Below are positions 3,654 through 17,414 of a DNA stretch of 36,809 nt, piece after piece. Location of the stretch: the NCBI GenBank assembly GCA_029865005.1, contig JAOTSI010000003.1, positions 1 to 36,809 of the forward strand. Reading direction: 5' to 3'. The translations under genes and the position numbers were made by a program. This DNA comes from Desulfobulbaceae bacterium. GTDB taxonomy: Bacteria; Desulfobacterota; Desulfobulbia; Desulfobulbales; Desulfobulbaceae. Position 1 is the first letter of the stretch. Each line of letters starts with the position of its first letter. Under the pieces are notes generated by a model. The model made no database searches and had not been told where the DNA came from. It saw only the letters and a list, made by a program, of their open reading frames with translations.

Positions 3654-5822
3654 TCATATATTAGTACATTCTTTAACAGCCAATTTAGCTCTGCGTATTC
3701 TGATTATAGTCCCCAGTCCAATAAAGCAAACAAGGATTGACAATAGAGCTGGATGCAAGCTGAGCCAGCTGAGTGCAATGAGCGGTAATAACAAACATTG
3801 GGTTAATAGTCGTAAAATACTGTTAGCGGCAATGGTGTTAGCAATGGTCGGAGAGAAATGATAATAGAAGTCTACTAAATGGCAACCCACGGAATTGTGA
3901 ATGAGGTAACGGTCACGAAAATCGCGCAAAACCTTAACATAGGGGTGAAGAACTGAACCGTAGGCTGCTGTGGCGATAAAACAAGCCTCAGAGGTTTCGA
4001 ATTTTATAATATTACCATAGTAAATGTCACTTTTTTCGCTGATTCCATAGGCGCGTACATAATAGGTGGTACCGGGCCGAAGATCGTTCATTTTGGATGA
4101 ATAAGTTCCGGTGCCGGAGCCGTTGTCAGTGAAGCCGTCGGTGATGAAGTTGCTATTTTGTACTTTTTGGGGTTCGCTTTCCTCTGTATCAGTATTGTCA
4201 TTTTGAGGATATAACGGATCAGGGTTTAAACTGAAAACAATTCCACGTTTTTTAAAAGTTAAACTTGTATTATCTTGAATTGTTCCTCCGCTGACTGCCG
4301 AAGTTTGGGTGATAGAGGTAACTATGCGGGTGCTGATGCCCGAGGCGTTGAACACCTCGGTATAGTTGGGAGTAGAGCTGACCGATCCGGTAAGATCTCC
4401 ATTCGTTGGTAGAGTACTTGACGTTGTATCTGAAATATCATAGCTGGCTAGAGCTGCGGCCTCAATTCCTTCCTGTTGAGTGACACCAACTGCGATGATC
4501 TTGTCGGTTGAAAGGAGTGCTATTGCCGTGCCATAATCATTATCGCCAAAGGGAGAGATCATGGCAGAGATATCCCATTGATTTGAGTAATCACTTTCAG
4601 GATTCATAAAGGATTGCTCATCATCTAAGGAATTATACATAATGAGATCGTTAATGACGATTTGTGAACCGGAAATCGAATTGTTTATTGTTGCTTTCTC
4701 TTGGGCAAAAATAAAGAGAAAGCTTTTTTTGTTATCGATATCCTGGGTATAGCCTGTCATCCCTATGCCGTTTTCACTCACTACTAGCGTGGAAATTTCA
4801 TCGTCTTCATCTTCTAAGCCAACGTTTAAAGCTCCTTCGAAGCCGAAGGTCCCATCGGCAGTCCCGTTATGGGTAAAGAGAAAAAGCATGGAATCACGAT
4901 CTCCAACTTCTCCTATGGAGCCGGCTGCCAATAGGGAACCGTCTTCTAAGATACTTATGGCCTGACCTCTGCTTGAGACGTGGTCATCTGTTGGGTAAGC
5001 TACTCCTTGGTCACCGAAACTTTCATCAAGTTGTCCATAGGCGCTAACCCGTATCACCAATGCCTGTTCCCAGCCATCGTTATTATTACTCGTAGAACCC
5101 ACTGCGACAATACTATCATTGGAGAGTATCTTGAGGTCGTTTAATACCGTATCATCACCTATGGTGTCTATAACTTTGGTTCCCTGAGCGTCGCCGAAAG
5201 TAGTGTCGATCGTACCATCATCCAAATACCTGGTCAATACAGGGACTTTTCCGATGGTGCCGGTAGAGTAGCCAGCCACTACGATTCGGCCAGCTGAATC
5301 AACGGCTACAGCATGTATTTCATCGTTGTCTGCTGTATTTCCAATGATTATGCCGTTCTCTCCGAATCCTTCGTAAAGAGAACCATCTGCATTGTAACAA
5401 GCTAATGCAAAATCTTTATCCCCTGAAACCACCGTGGCGTAACCTGCGGCAATAATTTTGCCGTCAGCTGTATAGCTCAGGGCTAAAATTTCAGCATCGC
5501 CGTTTCCCAATTGGGTTGTTATTGCACCATCTGATTGAAAAGAGCTGTCCAGGACACCGTTAGAATTAAGACGCAACAACGCAAAACTTGACCGGGACGA
5601 GACAGTAGTGCTGCCTCCTACGATTATTTTGTTATTATCATGATCTATTAATAAGGCATTAGTTTTAATCGTATTTCCGTTAATATCTATAATGGCCCTA
5701 CCGTTAATGCCAAACTCACCATCGCCTTCAAAGCTCAAGGCAGATGAGGTATCAAAAGTGAGAGGTAATAAGATATGTAGTATAAAGAGCAGCCATAACC
5801 AGCTTATCTTGTGATTTTTCAT
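3654..5822 (-). CDS. Secreted delta-60-repeat (beta-propeller-like) protein with C-terminal CFI-box domain and TM segments
   Basis: Signal-peptide-like N-terminus; repeated 'DSSFQSDGAI', 'FGENGIIIG', 'DTTFGDAQGTKV', 'DESFGDQGVAYP', 'DGTFGFEGALNV' units; Fn3-like segment; C-terminus ACFIATAAYGSVLHPYVKVLRDFRDRYLIHN...VDFYYHFSPTIA then hydrophobic helices. Confidence 0.85.
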   Translation of the reverse strand: MKNHKISWLWLLFILHILLPLTFDTSSALSFEGDGEFGINGRAIIDINGNTIKTNALLIDHDNNKIIVGGSTTVSSRSSFALLRLNSNGVLDSSFQSDGAITTQLGNGDAEILALSYTADGKIIAAGYATVVSGDKDFALACYNADGSLYEGFGENGIIIGNTADNDEIHAVAVDSAGRIVVAGYSTGTIGKVPVLTRYLDDGTIDTTFGDAQGTKVIDTIGDDTVLNDLKILSNDSIVAVGSTSNNNDGWEQALVIRVSAYGQLDESFGDQGVAYPTDDHVSSRGQAISILEDGSLLAAGSIGEVGDRDSMLFLFTHNGTADGTFGFEGALNVGLEDEDDEISTLVVSENGIGMTGYTQDIDNKKSFLFIFAQEKATINNSISGSQIVINDLIMYNSLDDEQSFMNPESDYSNQWDISAMISPFGDNDYGTAIALLSTDKIIAVGVTQQEGIEAAALASYDISDTTSSTLPTNGDLTGSVSSTPNYTEVFNASGISTRIVTSITQTSAVSGGTIQDNTSLTFKKRGIVFSLNPDPLYPQNDNTDTEESEPQKVQNSNFITDGFTDNGSGTGTYSSKMNDLRPGTTYYVRAYGISEKSDIYYGNIIKFETSEACFIATAAYGSVLHPYVKVLRDFRDRYLIHNSVGCHLVDFYYHFSPTIANTIAANSILRLLTQCLLLPLIALSWLSLHPALLSILVCFIGLGTIIRIRRAKLAVKECTNI

Positions 5823-12188: not shown

Positions 12189-13739
12189 TTAAAGGGCTTT
12201 GTGTAAATCTGGCATAATAGTGGTTATGTCGTTATGGGTAGAGTCGATTGATGGTGCAAACTCAATGGAGATAATTTTTGATTCTCCAATAGAAGTGCTT
12301 TCTTTTCGAATTACACTGAATTTAGAGGGTAATTGTTTTTTCAACCAAGATATTAAATCTTTTTCATTCCTATCTTTCATTGTAACCAGAAAAACTTTTT
12401 TTCCTTTTTCTGTAATTGGTTGAAATTTTATATCCGGGGTTTGTTTTATTTGAATGACACTACAAGTCCATTGTTTATTGATTATTTTATAATGAACATC
12501 GTCCAAATTCCATAAATACATTAAACGCTCCCCTAATCGTAAGTGAGAAGCTACAATATCGCCATTGTGAACCATTGTATTTAGAGTTTTATAAATTAAA
12601 TTGGCGTTATTAGTTGATCTTGAAATTTTACTGTGAAGTCGATGGAAAGTGTTACCTGTGTTTAATATTAGCACGCTAATAACAATAATTAATGGTATAA
12701 ATTCAAATATTTTTTTCTTTGAAAAAAATGGGTTAGAAAGTAGCCAGATGATGCCAAGGGAAATCATACCAAAATAAAATGGTAAAAAATATATCCATAC
12801 CCTTTGAAAAGGAGGTATGACGCCAGTGAGCAAGATAACTATTGTTGGCCAAGAGATAATTGATACCAGTAAAATAACTAGCTCACTACTGTTACGAAAT
12901 AAACGAATAACAAGTGCAAATAAGCCTATTGTAGCTAAAATAACAACATATGACTGTAGCTCATTGTTCCATCCATGAATGACCTTGTCGAAAGCATGAG
13001 GAATCATAGTTAATAATTCCGAAAAAGAATGTTTAGTTGCTTGCTTGAGGGGAGGTAGTCCTTTGTAACTAAATAATACAGGGCTGTAAAATATAATGGT
13101 AAAGATACTTGTTAACACTACCGATATTGTAGATCTGGTAAGTAAATATTTTTTTAGAATTACATCTTTCTCTAACAACCCCGTTCCAAAAATCCACATA
13201 TAAACTGCACCGGCACCATAAAGCATACTGGGAACAGTGTACAAGCCAAACGACACAGTCAATGACAAAAAAAGGTAATTATGGCGACCAGATTGGTTTA
13301 TAATAAGTTTGCCAAAAATAAAGGATAATATAAAAAGGAAAGCTTGGAGACTATAACCACGTGCCTGCCCAGAATAAAATGCCATGGAAAACGAGGTGGC
13401 TACGAAGGTAGTGGTAAGTAGTGCCACATGATTGCCACCAACTTTTTTCCAAAATAAATAAGAAAGAGGGATAATGGCAATCCCAGAAATTATCGAAGGC
13501 AAACGAATTACCCATGTGGCCTCACCAAAAAAAATTACGCATATTTTCCCTAATATCGAAAAGAGGAAATGGTTATTTGCTACATGATAATTTGTTATAC
13601 AGTATAAAAAATCAGACTTGATAAAATGAAGATATGTATATGCTTCATCATATGTTATTGGCATGTGTATAGCATAAAGTCTTAGTAATACAGCTACGGT
13701 AAGGCTGGCGATTATCAATAAACTGTGTGTTCTCCCCAT
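12189..13739 (-). CDS. Multi-pass membrane glycosyltransferase, PMT/GT39-like
   Basis: HMPITYDEAYTYLHFI (D-E motif in first loop), about 10 hydrophobic helices, short soluble C-terminus. Confidence 0.75.
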   Translation of the reverse strand: MGRTHSLLIIASLTVAVLLRLYAIHMPITYDEAYTYLHFIKSDFLYCITNYHVANNHFLFSILGKICVIFFGEATWVIRLPSIISGIAIIPLSYLFWKKVGGNHVALLTTTFVATSFSMAFYSGQARGYSLQAFLFILSFIFGKLIINQSGRHNYLFLSLTVSFGLYTVPSMLYGAGAVYMWIFGTGLLEKDVILKKYLLTRSTISVVLTSIFTIIFYSPVLFSYKGLPPLKQATKHSFSELLTMIPHAFDKVIHGWNNELQSYVVILATIGLFALVIRLFRNSSELVILLVSIISWPTIVILLTGVIPPFQRVWIYFLPFYFGMISLGIIWLLSNPFFSKKKIFEFIPLIIVISVLILNTGNTFHRLHSKISRSTNNANLIYKTLNTMVHNGDIVASHLRLGERLMYLWNLDDVHYKIINKQWTCSVIQIKQTPDIKFQPITEKGKKVFLVTMKDRNEKDLISWLKKQLPSKFSVIRKESTSIGESKIISIEFAPSIDSTHNDITTIMPDLHKAL

Positions 13740-13764
13740 ATGTTCACCTTATAATTACAAAGTT

Positions 13765-14033
13765 AGGCTCGTCGCTGTTTCGTGTGGGTAATCCAGAATT
13801 ATACTACGTTACCTGGTACTTTAACCAGCCTTTGAGCTGGAGCCCCGCCGGAGGCATAGCGCCTCATCGCCTTTGCCACTTTCAGGTCTGCATACCACAA
13901 CAAAACTGTCAAGGCGGCGACCGGTGGGAGCGCCCGTAGGGCTGGGCCTTGACAGCTTTGTTGTGGTATGCTAGCTCGGAATTATTCCTAATTAGAAGGA
14001 GTTCGATTACCCACACGAAATAGCGAAAAGCCT
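13765..14033. mobile_element. MITE-like non-coding element 1 bounded by near-identical terminal inverted repeats (A/B)
   Basis: Left aggctcgtcgctgtttcgtgtgggtaatc (13765-13793), right gattacccacacgaaatagcgaaaagcct (14005-14033), 26/29 complementary; no ORF inside; carries the hairpin at 13890-13971. Confidence 0.6.
13890..13971. repeat. Long hairpin, 26-bp arms with one mismatch
   Basis: gcataccacaacaaaactgtcaaggc (13890-13915) / gccttgacagctttgttgtggtatgc (13946-13971), 30-nt GC-rich loop. Confidence 0.92.
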
Positions 14034-14200
14034 AACACTGTTTATTTTTTTTGGATCAAATTGTACCTTGTCAAAGTTAATTGATTTAAAATATAATAGA
14101 ATTATTTATTTTAAAACCTATCTATAATAATTACTTTCTTTACCTCTAAACAATAATACATTGTTACGATTGACAGTTAAAACAAATTAACTTTTCGTTA

Positions 14201-14252
14201 TTATACCTAATTAGAAGAAGTTCGATTACCCACACGAAATAGCGAGGAGCCA
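14201..14252. repeat. Isolated second copy of the MITE-like right end (C)
   Basis: ttatacctaattagaagaagttcgattacccacacgaaatagcgaggagcca matches 13982-14033 at about 47/52 positions in direct orientation. Confidence 0.85.
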
Positions 14253-14284
14253 AAAGGGCTCTTCGTTATTTCGTGTGGGTAACT
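14224..14284. repeat. Hairpin from two abutting ends (C and D)
   Basis: gattacccacacgaaatagcgaggagc-caaaagg-gctcttcgttatttcgtgtgggtaac; arms about 26-27 bp with few mismatches. Confidence 0.9.
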
Positions 14285-14478
14285 ACTTTTAAACCCCTGG
14301 CGTGTAACTAGTACTAGTTAGCTCCTGTTTGTGGCGTGTCACGAATAGCATTGAAAGGGAAAGGGGGCAAAAGCGAGAGGGCTGAAGCCTCCGGCGGGGC
14401 TCCATCTTAAGGGCTGGTCAGCTATGTCTCCGCATTAGAGGGCTTTTCGATGTTACCCACACAAAACAGCGATGGGTC
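14257..14478. mobile_element. MITE-like non-coding element 2 bounded by inverted ends (D/E)
   Basis: Left ggctcttcgttatttcgtgtgggtaac; right gttacccacacaaaacagcgatgggtc; internal gcctccggcggggctcc segment is an inverted copy of 13822-13885. Confidence 0.5.
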
Positions 14479-14570
14479 AATTTTTTTCTAGTGTTTTTGT
14501 AATGATTGTTTTTAACAACTTTCATCATAAGAACTCCTGACTATAAAGTTCTTTTTTTACTGGTAATGAA

Positions 14571-15281
14571 ATGAATCAATCATCTATAAAGAAATTGTCT
14601 ATTGTCATCCCGGTTTATAATGAAATAAATTCCCTGGAAAAAGTACTCAGGATGGTGCGTGCGGTTACCCTGCCCATGGAAAAGGAGATAATTATCGTGG
14701 ATGATTGTTCCACGGACGGTACACGCGAATTAATGAAAAATATGTTCGCTTCTGATTTGTTAACTGTATTTCATCCGGTTAATCAGGGCAAAGGGGCGGC
14801 TTTACGGACAGGTTTTGCAAAGGCGAGCGGAGAGATTGTCCTGATTCAAGATGCCGACCTGGAGTATGATCCCACCGAATATCCGAAACTACTTGCTCCT
14901 ATTTTAGAGGGAAAAGCCGATGTCGTATATGGTTCCAGATTTGTTGGTTCCAAGGCCCATCGGGTACTCTATTTTTGGCATATGGTTGGCAACAGGTTTC
15001 TTACTCTTATTTCCAACATGTTAACTAATCTTAATCTTACTGATATGGAAACTTGTTACAAAGTCTTTCGGTTGGAGGTGGTTCAGGCAATAACTATAGA
15101 GGAAAATCGTTTCGGCTTTGAACCGGAGATTACTGCCAAGGTGGCTAAGACACGATGTAGAATCTATGAGGTGGGAATATCTTATAGTGGTCGAACCTAT
15201 AGAGAAGGAAAGAAGATCGGTTGGCGAGACGGTATCTCCGCTTTGCGTTGTATTTTGAAGTATAATTTGTTTTCTTCATGA
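14571..15281 (+). CDS. Family 2 glycosyltransferase (dolichol-phosphate mannose synthase-like)
   Basis: [21 protein letters not shown]...[16 protein letters not shown]...[38 protein letters not shown]...YGSRF. Confidence 0.92.
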
Positions 15282-16370: not shown

Positions 16371-17414
16371 TTAACCTTGGGCGAGCGGCGATAATTTTCT
16401 TTTTAATATGGGCCTAGCTCGTAGGGCAAGGAAGCAACAGAGTACTGTGGAGAAAAGAAAGAAGATTTTTTCCACTATGGATAATTTGAGCAGAAAATAG
16501 CTCAACCCAATCAAGGGATGAAGTGCTAATCGTACAATACCCTTGAGCAATTCACTGTTACGGATATAATCGGCTATGGGTGGAGAGGTTTCGTAATAAA
16601 AAGAAACAAAACTTCGTCCAATTTTATGGGGTAATAGAATTACATCACGAAACTCTTTGAGCAGCTTTACATGTGGTTCCAGGCCGGAGCCGAAGGCGGC
16701 GGTGGCAATAAAACAGGGACCGCTATTGCTGCTACTTTTAGAATTTGTCGGTGTTGCTCCTGGCATAACACCTCCCTCACCAATGATCCCCTTGAGAGTA
16801 TTGTACCAGGTTTGGGCCATGATTTGATAGCCGCTGTCATTGGGATGCATTCCGTCAACGGTCAGAGAATCCCAATTGGGAGCTAGAGGCGAATACTGAT
16901 CAACCAAACTAATTCCTTTTTCCTGGGCCAAGCTATTAATCATGGGGTTATAGGTGGTTGAAACTTGTTTTTTCCAGCCTTGGGGAGATGTATCAGGTAA
17001 TAGGTTAGATATTAAGGGAGTAGCGTTTCGAGCCCGGCATTTGTTTATCATTTCGCTGAGGTTAAACTTTGTAGTTTCAAGTGATATTCCAAAGGCTCGG
17101 TCATTGATGCCTTCCAGGAGTAATACGAGTTGTGGCCCACTTGCGGCCAAAACAGAGTCTATACGGGCAATGCCTTGTGAAGTATGCTCTCCAGGGATAC
17201 CATAATTTAATATATTTGAATTACGATTGTTATTGTTAAGGAGTGAGGTCAGTTTAGGAGGGTATCCCCCTGATGAACTGCCTTCACCAGCAGTGATGGA
17301 ATCACCAAAAGCATCGATAATTGCGGCCCCTGCAATATAGGGATTCGCCCAATAACAAAGGCTTATAATGAGGGTTGGTAATATTATTGTCTTGTATATA
17401 TTCAAATCTTTCAT
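16371..17414 (-). CDS. Secreted SGNH/GDSL hydrolase with C-terminal CFI-box domain and TM segments
   Basis: [23 protein letters not shown] (block I), [11 protein letters not shown] (block III-like), [14 protein letters not shown] (D-x-x-H block V); C-terminus [28 protein letters not shown]...[14 protein letters not shown] plus hydrophobic helices. Confidence 0.9.

Follow-up and report, generated by a model that had tools for sequence, protein, structure and literature searches.

REP/BIME and PATE elements are dispersed hairpins mobilized by Y1 transposases, and the leader hairpins of IS10 and IS50, which are formed by the ends of the insertion sequences (ISs) themselves, limit transposase expression from outside transcripts (anti-readthrough). 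In Microcystis aeruginosa PCC 7806 a 187-nt MITE, present in 31-33 identical copies, has been attributed to an ISL3-family transposase (PMC11448079): its inverted terminal repeat begins GGCTCTTCG, it is accompanied by 8-nt direct repeats, and it is dispersed and non-coding, with a predicted stem-loop and a transposase presumably acting in trans. Tn3-derived TIMEs are non-autonomous inverted-repeat elements that form mosaics (PMC4133298).

The window – the whole stretch of DNA that was analyzed, 36,809 nt of a Desulfobulbaceae genome – contains a gene-free stretch that is very probably a nest of three non-autonomous ISL3-family MITEs: one complete (A-B), one remnant (C) and a further complete element (D-E). 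The family shares with ISL3-family ISs (PF01610) the GGCTC tips, the 8-bp duplications at copies outside the window units and, in the same genome, a DDE_Tnp_ISL3 transposase bounded by the same ends; the difference is that the window units carry no transposase. The tip sequence, the dispersal, the non-coding nature, the stem-loop, the transposase putatively acting in trans and, at copies outside the window units, the 8-nt repeats of the Microcystis element recur in the host MITEs, but these measure 200-300 bp, fall into three diverged subfamilies, have ends of ~26 bp and carry a hairpin module that crosses element families. Mosaic structure is common to the window MITEs and TIMEs, whose ends are of Tn3 and not of ISL3 type. 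Dispersed hairpins are likewise shared with REP/BIME and PATE elements, which lack ISL3 ends. The IS10 and IS50 leader hairpins offer a model for the proposed role of the module, but are not a portable module common to IS families.

Layout of the gene-free stretch

The cluster occupies the upstream region common to two divergent genes (Table 1). As originally predicted it has no coding capacity: the sole open reading frame of at least 40 aa within positions 13740-14570 is a 70-aa frame with a GTG start. No intrinsic terminator was found in the cluster region. Elsewhere in the window, the open reading frames at 3654-5822 (-) and 16371-17414 (-) resemble each other in a C-terminal stretch, CFIATAA[YF]GS..FRD....SP.IA.

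Five copies of one end sequence had been proposed. A pattern search of the window recovers four (A, B, C and D) with 0-1 mismatches to GGCTCNTCGCTATTTCGTGTGGGTAA, a pattern without a match in dinucleotide shuffles of the window; the fifth, E, is diverged in its tips and is still a clear copy. A and B do bound one unit, but its length from tip to tip is 267 bp and not the 269 bp first given, while the 222 bp assigned to the unit between D and E are correct. C is an orphan right end, as had been claimed: the remnant is 57 bp long, and positions 14195-14254 are 88% identical to 13976-14035. The AT-rich spacer between B and this remnant has no second copy in the host genome.

Table 1. Features of the gene-free stretch and its neighbors (window positions).
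Feature	Position	Strand	Basis
Neighboring gene, 516-aa multi-membrane protein, glycosyltransferase-like by eye	12189-13739	-	open reading frame list
Unit A-B, 267 bp, assigned to ISL3-type MITEs, subfamily II	13766-14032	+	ends A/B; alignment with C417
Terminal repeat A, left end	13766-13793	+	GGCTCNTCGCTATTTCGTGTGGGTAA match at 13766-13791
Intact cargo module, GC block and long hairpin, 158 nt	13820-13977	+	covariance model
82-nt hairpin, 26-bp arms 96% complementary	13890-13971	+	arms 13890-13915/13946-13971
Terminal repeat B, right end	14005-14032	-	GGCTCNTCGCTATTTCGTGTGGGTAA match at 14007-14032
AT-rich single-copy spacer between B and remnant C	14033-14194	.	genome copy search
Orphan right end C, assigned to a second subfamily-II MITE, left part gone	14195-14251	-	direct repeat; alignment
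End C	14226-14251	-	GGCTCNTCGCTATTTCGTGTGGGTAA match
Unit D-E, 222 bp, assigned to ISL3-type MITEs, subfamily III	14257-14478	-	alignment with C12
End D	14257-14282	+	GGCTCNTCGCTATTTCGTGTGGGTAA match
Module remnant in D-E, GC block only, inverted relative to A-B	14366-14418	-	alignment
Terminal repeat E, diverged	14453-14478	-	reads GACCCATCGCTGTTTTGTGTGGGTAA
Neighboring gene, 236-aa family-2-type glycosyltransferase by eye	14571-15281	+	open reading frame list

A GC-rich block had been described as recurring in inverted orientation, and it does: 13824-13855 is repeated at 14387-14418 with 91% identity, and the longer segment 14366-14418 matches the block at 85%. The block is not confined to this spacer: it belongs to a structured module that is also found outside ISL3 elements. 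The nested symmetry of about 700 bp that had been drawn from these repeats is real as inverted similarity, but not as a single designed structure, since it arises from elements of two MITE subfamilies (II and III) lying in opposite orientation.

The ISL3 family in the host genome

A 20-bp core of the end occurs at 31 places in the host assembly at no more than two mismatches (reversed control: 0), and BLASTN with unit A-B finds related units on several host contigs. On contig C210 two such ends, GGCTCCTCGCTATTTCATGTGGGTAA and GGCTCTTCGCTATTTCGTGTGGGTAA, which match those of the window, enclose an intact 406-aa ISL3 transposase (PF01610, 3.4e-73) in an IS of 1.3 kb. The same domain is present on C276 and C317 and absent from the window units. 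Seven two-ended copies without transposase lie elsewhere in the genome; those on C278, C276 and C12 are 299-300 bp long and are flanked by perfect 8-bp target duplications (8/8: CTAATTTG, TCAAAATT and CAAAGAGT, respectively). These data bear out the link to ISL3 and to MITEs, and supply the further genomic copies whose absence was to have counted against it. Several single ends sit at contig tips, as expected from assembly collapse of a multi-copy IS; at two of them, on C189 and C446, an identical 8-mer, TATTAAAT, adjoins opposite IS ends, so that these tips probably flank a single insertion. GGCTC-type ends are present in nearly all of 22 transposase relatives taken from named genomes, and four of the corresponding ISs (L094, L096, L097 and L106) show perfect 8-bp duplications.

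End-to-end alignment divides the MITEs into three subfamilies. Subfamily I comprises the copies on C278, C276, C268, C98, C182 and C428 plus partial copies; subfamily II comprises A-B, remnant C and the copy on C417 (11087-11291), a relative of A-B without the hairpin; subfamily III comprises D-E and the copy on C12 (2501-2799), which retains both its duplication and its hairpin. A further ISL3-type end, with a subfamily-III-like flank, is found at C414:300-495 (L080) and holds a distinct nested hairpin of the GCCCTTGCCCGC..GCGGGCAGGGGC type; this hairpin belongs to a repeat that matches the host genome at no fewer than 40 places (40 of 259 first-look candidates were scored) and has no copy in the window.

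The window units themselves lack target duplications. Agreement between the 8-bp flanks is 3/8 for A-B and 2/8 for D-E, and a search over A-B, A-C, A-E and D-E, including shifts of ±3, found none (best 6/8, for A-B): the units are thus either old or rearranged. No empty site for the window insertions was found, so that insertion at this locus is deduced from the relatives. The 8-mer immediately left of A, CAAAGTTA (13758-13765), occurs again at 14072-14079, 40 bp to the right of B, and is possibly a displaced target duplication; its single-test shuffle chance is 0.005, but the test was chosen after the repeat had been seen, and the recurrence is accordingly a hint. Together, the 31 ends, the ISL3 transposase between two of them and the duplications elsewhere point to A-B, C and D-E being old ISL3 MITEs of two subfamilies.

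From the matching ends and duplications we infer that these MITEs were mobilized in trans by the resident transposase. The ISL3 DDE transposase of the 1.3-kb IS (the C210 copy and others) would recognize the ~26-bp ends, move the DNA between two of them and generate an 8-bp target duplication; MITEs moved in this way would have inserted in the gap between the two divergent genes and then decayed, the putative signs of decay being the loss of duplications, the truncation of one unit and the absence of the hairpin from another. The stretch could instead be a local regulatory structure common to the two glycosyltransferase-like genes and no part of a mobile family. Its divergent intergenic position would suit such a role, as would TTGTCA-18-TATAAT, a good promoter-like match that the spacer contains at 14068-14097, but promoter-like sites are near shuffle expectation (4 vs 2.1±1.6), and the dispersed ends, the duplications at other copies and the occurrence of both subfamilies elsewhere in the genome render it highly improbable: the dispersed copies refute it as a full account. 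It is also very improbable that the units arose from the resident IS by plain internal deletion. The ends of MITEs and IS are nearly identical, but by eye their interiors share no recognizable sequence, and the module described below is absent from the resident IS and from the 22 relatives analyzed; simple deletion from this IS, which has no module, does not account for the MITEs.

Structure and carriers of the cargo module

In full-length MITE copies a GC-rich block precedes a long hairpin. The hairpin in A-B, overlooked in the original prediction, is part of this cargo module; its folding energy is -51.8 kcal/mol (z = -7.8 vs shuffles). By alignment the hairpin has been lost in D-E and in the copies on C417 and C182. 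Stem sequences vary between MITE subfamilies, with pairing kept and the apex conserved. In 27 aligned copies 91.3% of cells are paired and 26 pairs show double-sided change, and double-sided cells number 159 as against 46.8±6.0 in shuffles (0/500) and at most 65 with slid partners – counts from an alignment that was fitted to the structure and is so biased toward it, in which related copies are counted repeatedly, and of a kind that arm-to-arm correction in palindromes can also yield. A consensus structure for the 5' half was considered and set aside: in an unbiased alignment this half lacks convincing covariation. Primary sequence is conserved across genera, and in unrelated transposon families, both at the apex (CAAGGC-TGCGAG..GCGAGCACCCG.AGGG-CTTGGCCTTG) and in the 5' block. 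Rfam has no gathering-level match in the window, and the best permissive matches, for window and module copies alike, fall far below the cut-off. The module is an uncatalogued structured element.

A covariance model built on block and hairpin (R1) detects the module in 21 of 74 host-family genomes, representing 10 of 14 genera, and a second model (R2), used for the phylum scan, in 22 of 395 sampled genomes; both counts include the host genome. The A-B copy, which belongs to the training set, scores 143.8 bits, and relatives outside the host genome reach 137.6 bits. Plasmid and phage records gave no match, and none of the module copies in other genomes carries ISL3 ends like those of the window. 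A recombinase gene (by Pfam or BLASTX) lies beside the module in 26 of the 49 loci inspected outside the host genome, a raw tally over non-independent loci with no background transposase density as reference. The neighbors are transposases of the ISL3 (L137, L138, L151, L152, L160, L161, L162, L177), IS256 (L132, L133, L135, L154), IS110 (L134, L140, L142, L153), IS3 (L143, L144, L165, L180) and IS21 (L159, L163, L172, L183) families and tyrosine integrases (L130, L150); about eight more loci show, by eye, a terminal repeat only (L139, L141, L176, L173, L166, L178, L145, L158).

In the transposons examined in detail, the module sits between an end of the element and the transposase gene or, in the IS21 of genome G131, at the istA-istB junction. 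Outside the stem, the subfamily-I module of the host is more similar to the modules of an island (0.77) and of IS256 (0.71) than to the ISL3 modules of G080 (0.57), suggesting transfer among element families and not inheritance along with ISL3. Sister ISL3 elements whose transposases are 73% identical differ in its presence: those of G080 and G079 carry the module, whereas that of G006, present in four copies, lacks it and has a different hairpin in the corresponding interval.

Several further observations concern neighboring structures. The ISL3 elements of G006 (L233, L257) and G080 (L231) have a leader hairpin, a candidate anti-readthrough structure, and the start codon of the transposase falls within its stem (GCATCC..GGATGC). 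Six IMG/VR viral contigs (L194-L199) contain the hairpin apex core by itself, framed by ccgaagtga..tcactgaacgaagg and, in most, located between an open reading frame of ~436-440 aa and the next gene. In G294 two module copies (L164 and L179) precede open reading frames that resemble each other by eye; Pfam gave no match to L164:1737-2660. The right flank, CGCGTTAGATTGCC..., is conserved among five module copies (L129, L130, L131, L136 and L150), some of which lie in islands with tyrosine integrases. The module was also considered as an integron-like site beside such islands, and this was rejected: P4-type and other tyrosine integrases were the only ones seen.

Possible roles of the module

As a tentative reading, the module may be an undescribed structured element (RNA or ssDNA hairpin) that moves among ISL3, IS256, IS110, IS3, IS21 and integrase islands because its carrier benefits, for example by having its recombinase gene insulated or tuned. 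The specific role as a portable structured insulator or RNA leader, of which we infer the functional step, is somewhat doubtful, and yet ranks ahead of a neutral palindrome and of a palindrome mobilized by Y1, in that order. Under such a role the module would shield or tune an adjacent recombinase gene, and would be passive cargo inside a MITE. Against this role stands the side on which the module lies – 5' of the transposase in ISL3 elements, mostly 3' in IS256 and IS110 – and a simple mRNA-leader role is weakened by its orientation, which varies relative to the transposase and is antisense in L134/L140 and L162/L177.

REPs start with 5'-GTAGC, and the reverse complement of the hairpin begins in the same REP-like manner. 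The module could thus be a REP- or PATE-like palindrome moved by a Y1 transposase (IS200/IS605 or RAYT) and merely landing in transposons: Y1 transposases are present in 9 of the 12 carrier genomes searched, and ISs have been reported to insert at REP palindromes (PMC1525189). However, Y1_Tnp (PF01797) has no match in the module carriers G062, G079 and G198, and the existence of carrier genomes without Y1 leaves mobilization by Y1 or RAYT unsupported; moreover, the module is ~158 nt long, its 5' half is conserved and not palindromic, and no flanking target motif was recognized by eye. This origin is unlikely. Slightly less so, but unlikely still, is a functionless module, neutral filler spreading between elements, in which correction of the arms by replication template switching mimics compensation. 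The arms are indeed near-perfect palindromes, and the hairpin is deleted in three copies, as palindrome instability predicts; arm correction does not, however, explain a conserved apex and 5' block across genera and unrelated transposons.

The MITE cluster is in itself ordinary: it adds one ISL3 family in the phylum of the window, and an ISL3-attributed MITE has already been published from Microcystis. What deserves closer attention is the module: it is conserved, covarying and uncatalogued, it recurs next to recombinase genes from at least five transposon families that are unrelated, and sister elements differ in whether they have it. Should it prove functional, transposons would trade a non-coding accessory part in the way they trade passenger genes, and the module would be an accessory part shared among mobile elements that is not a gene.
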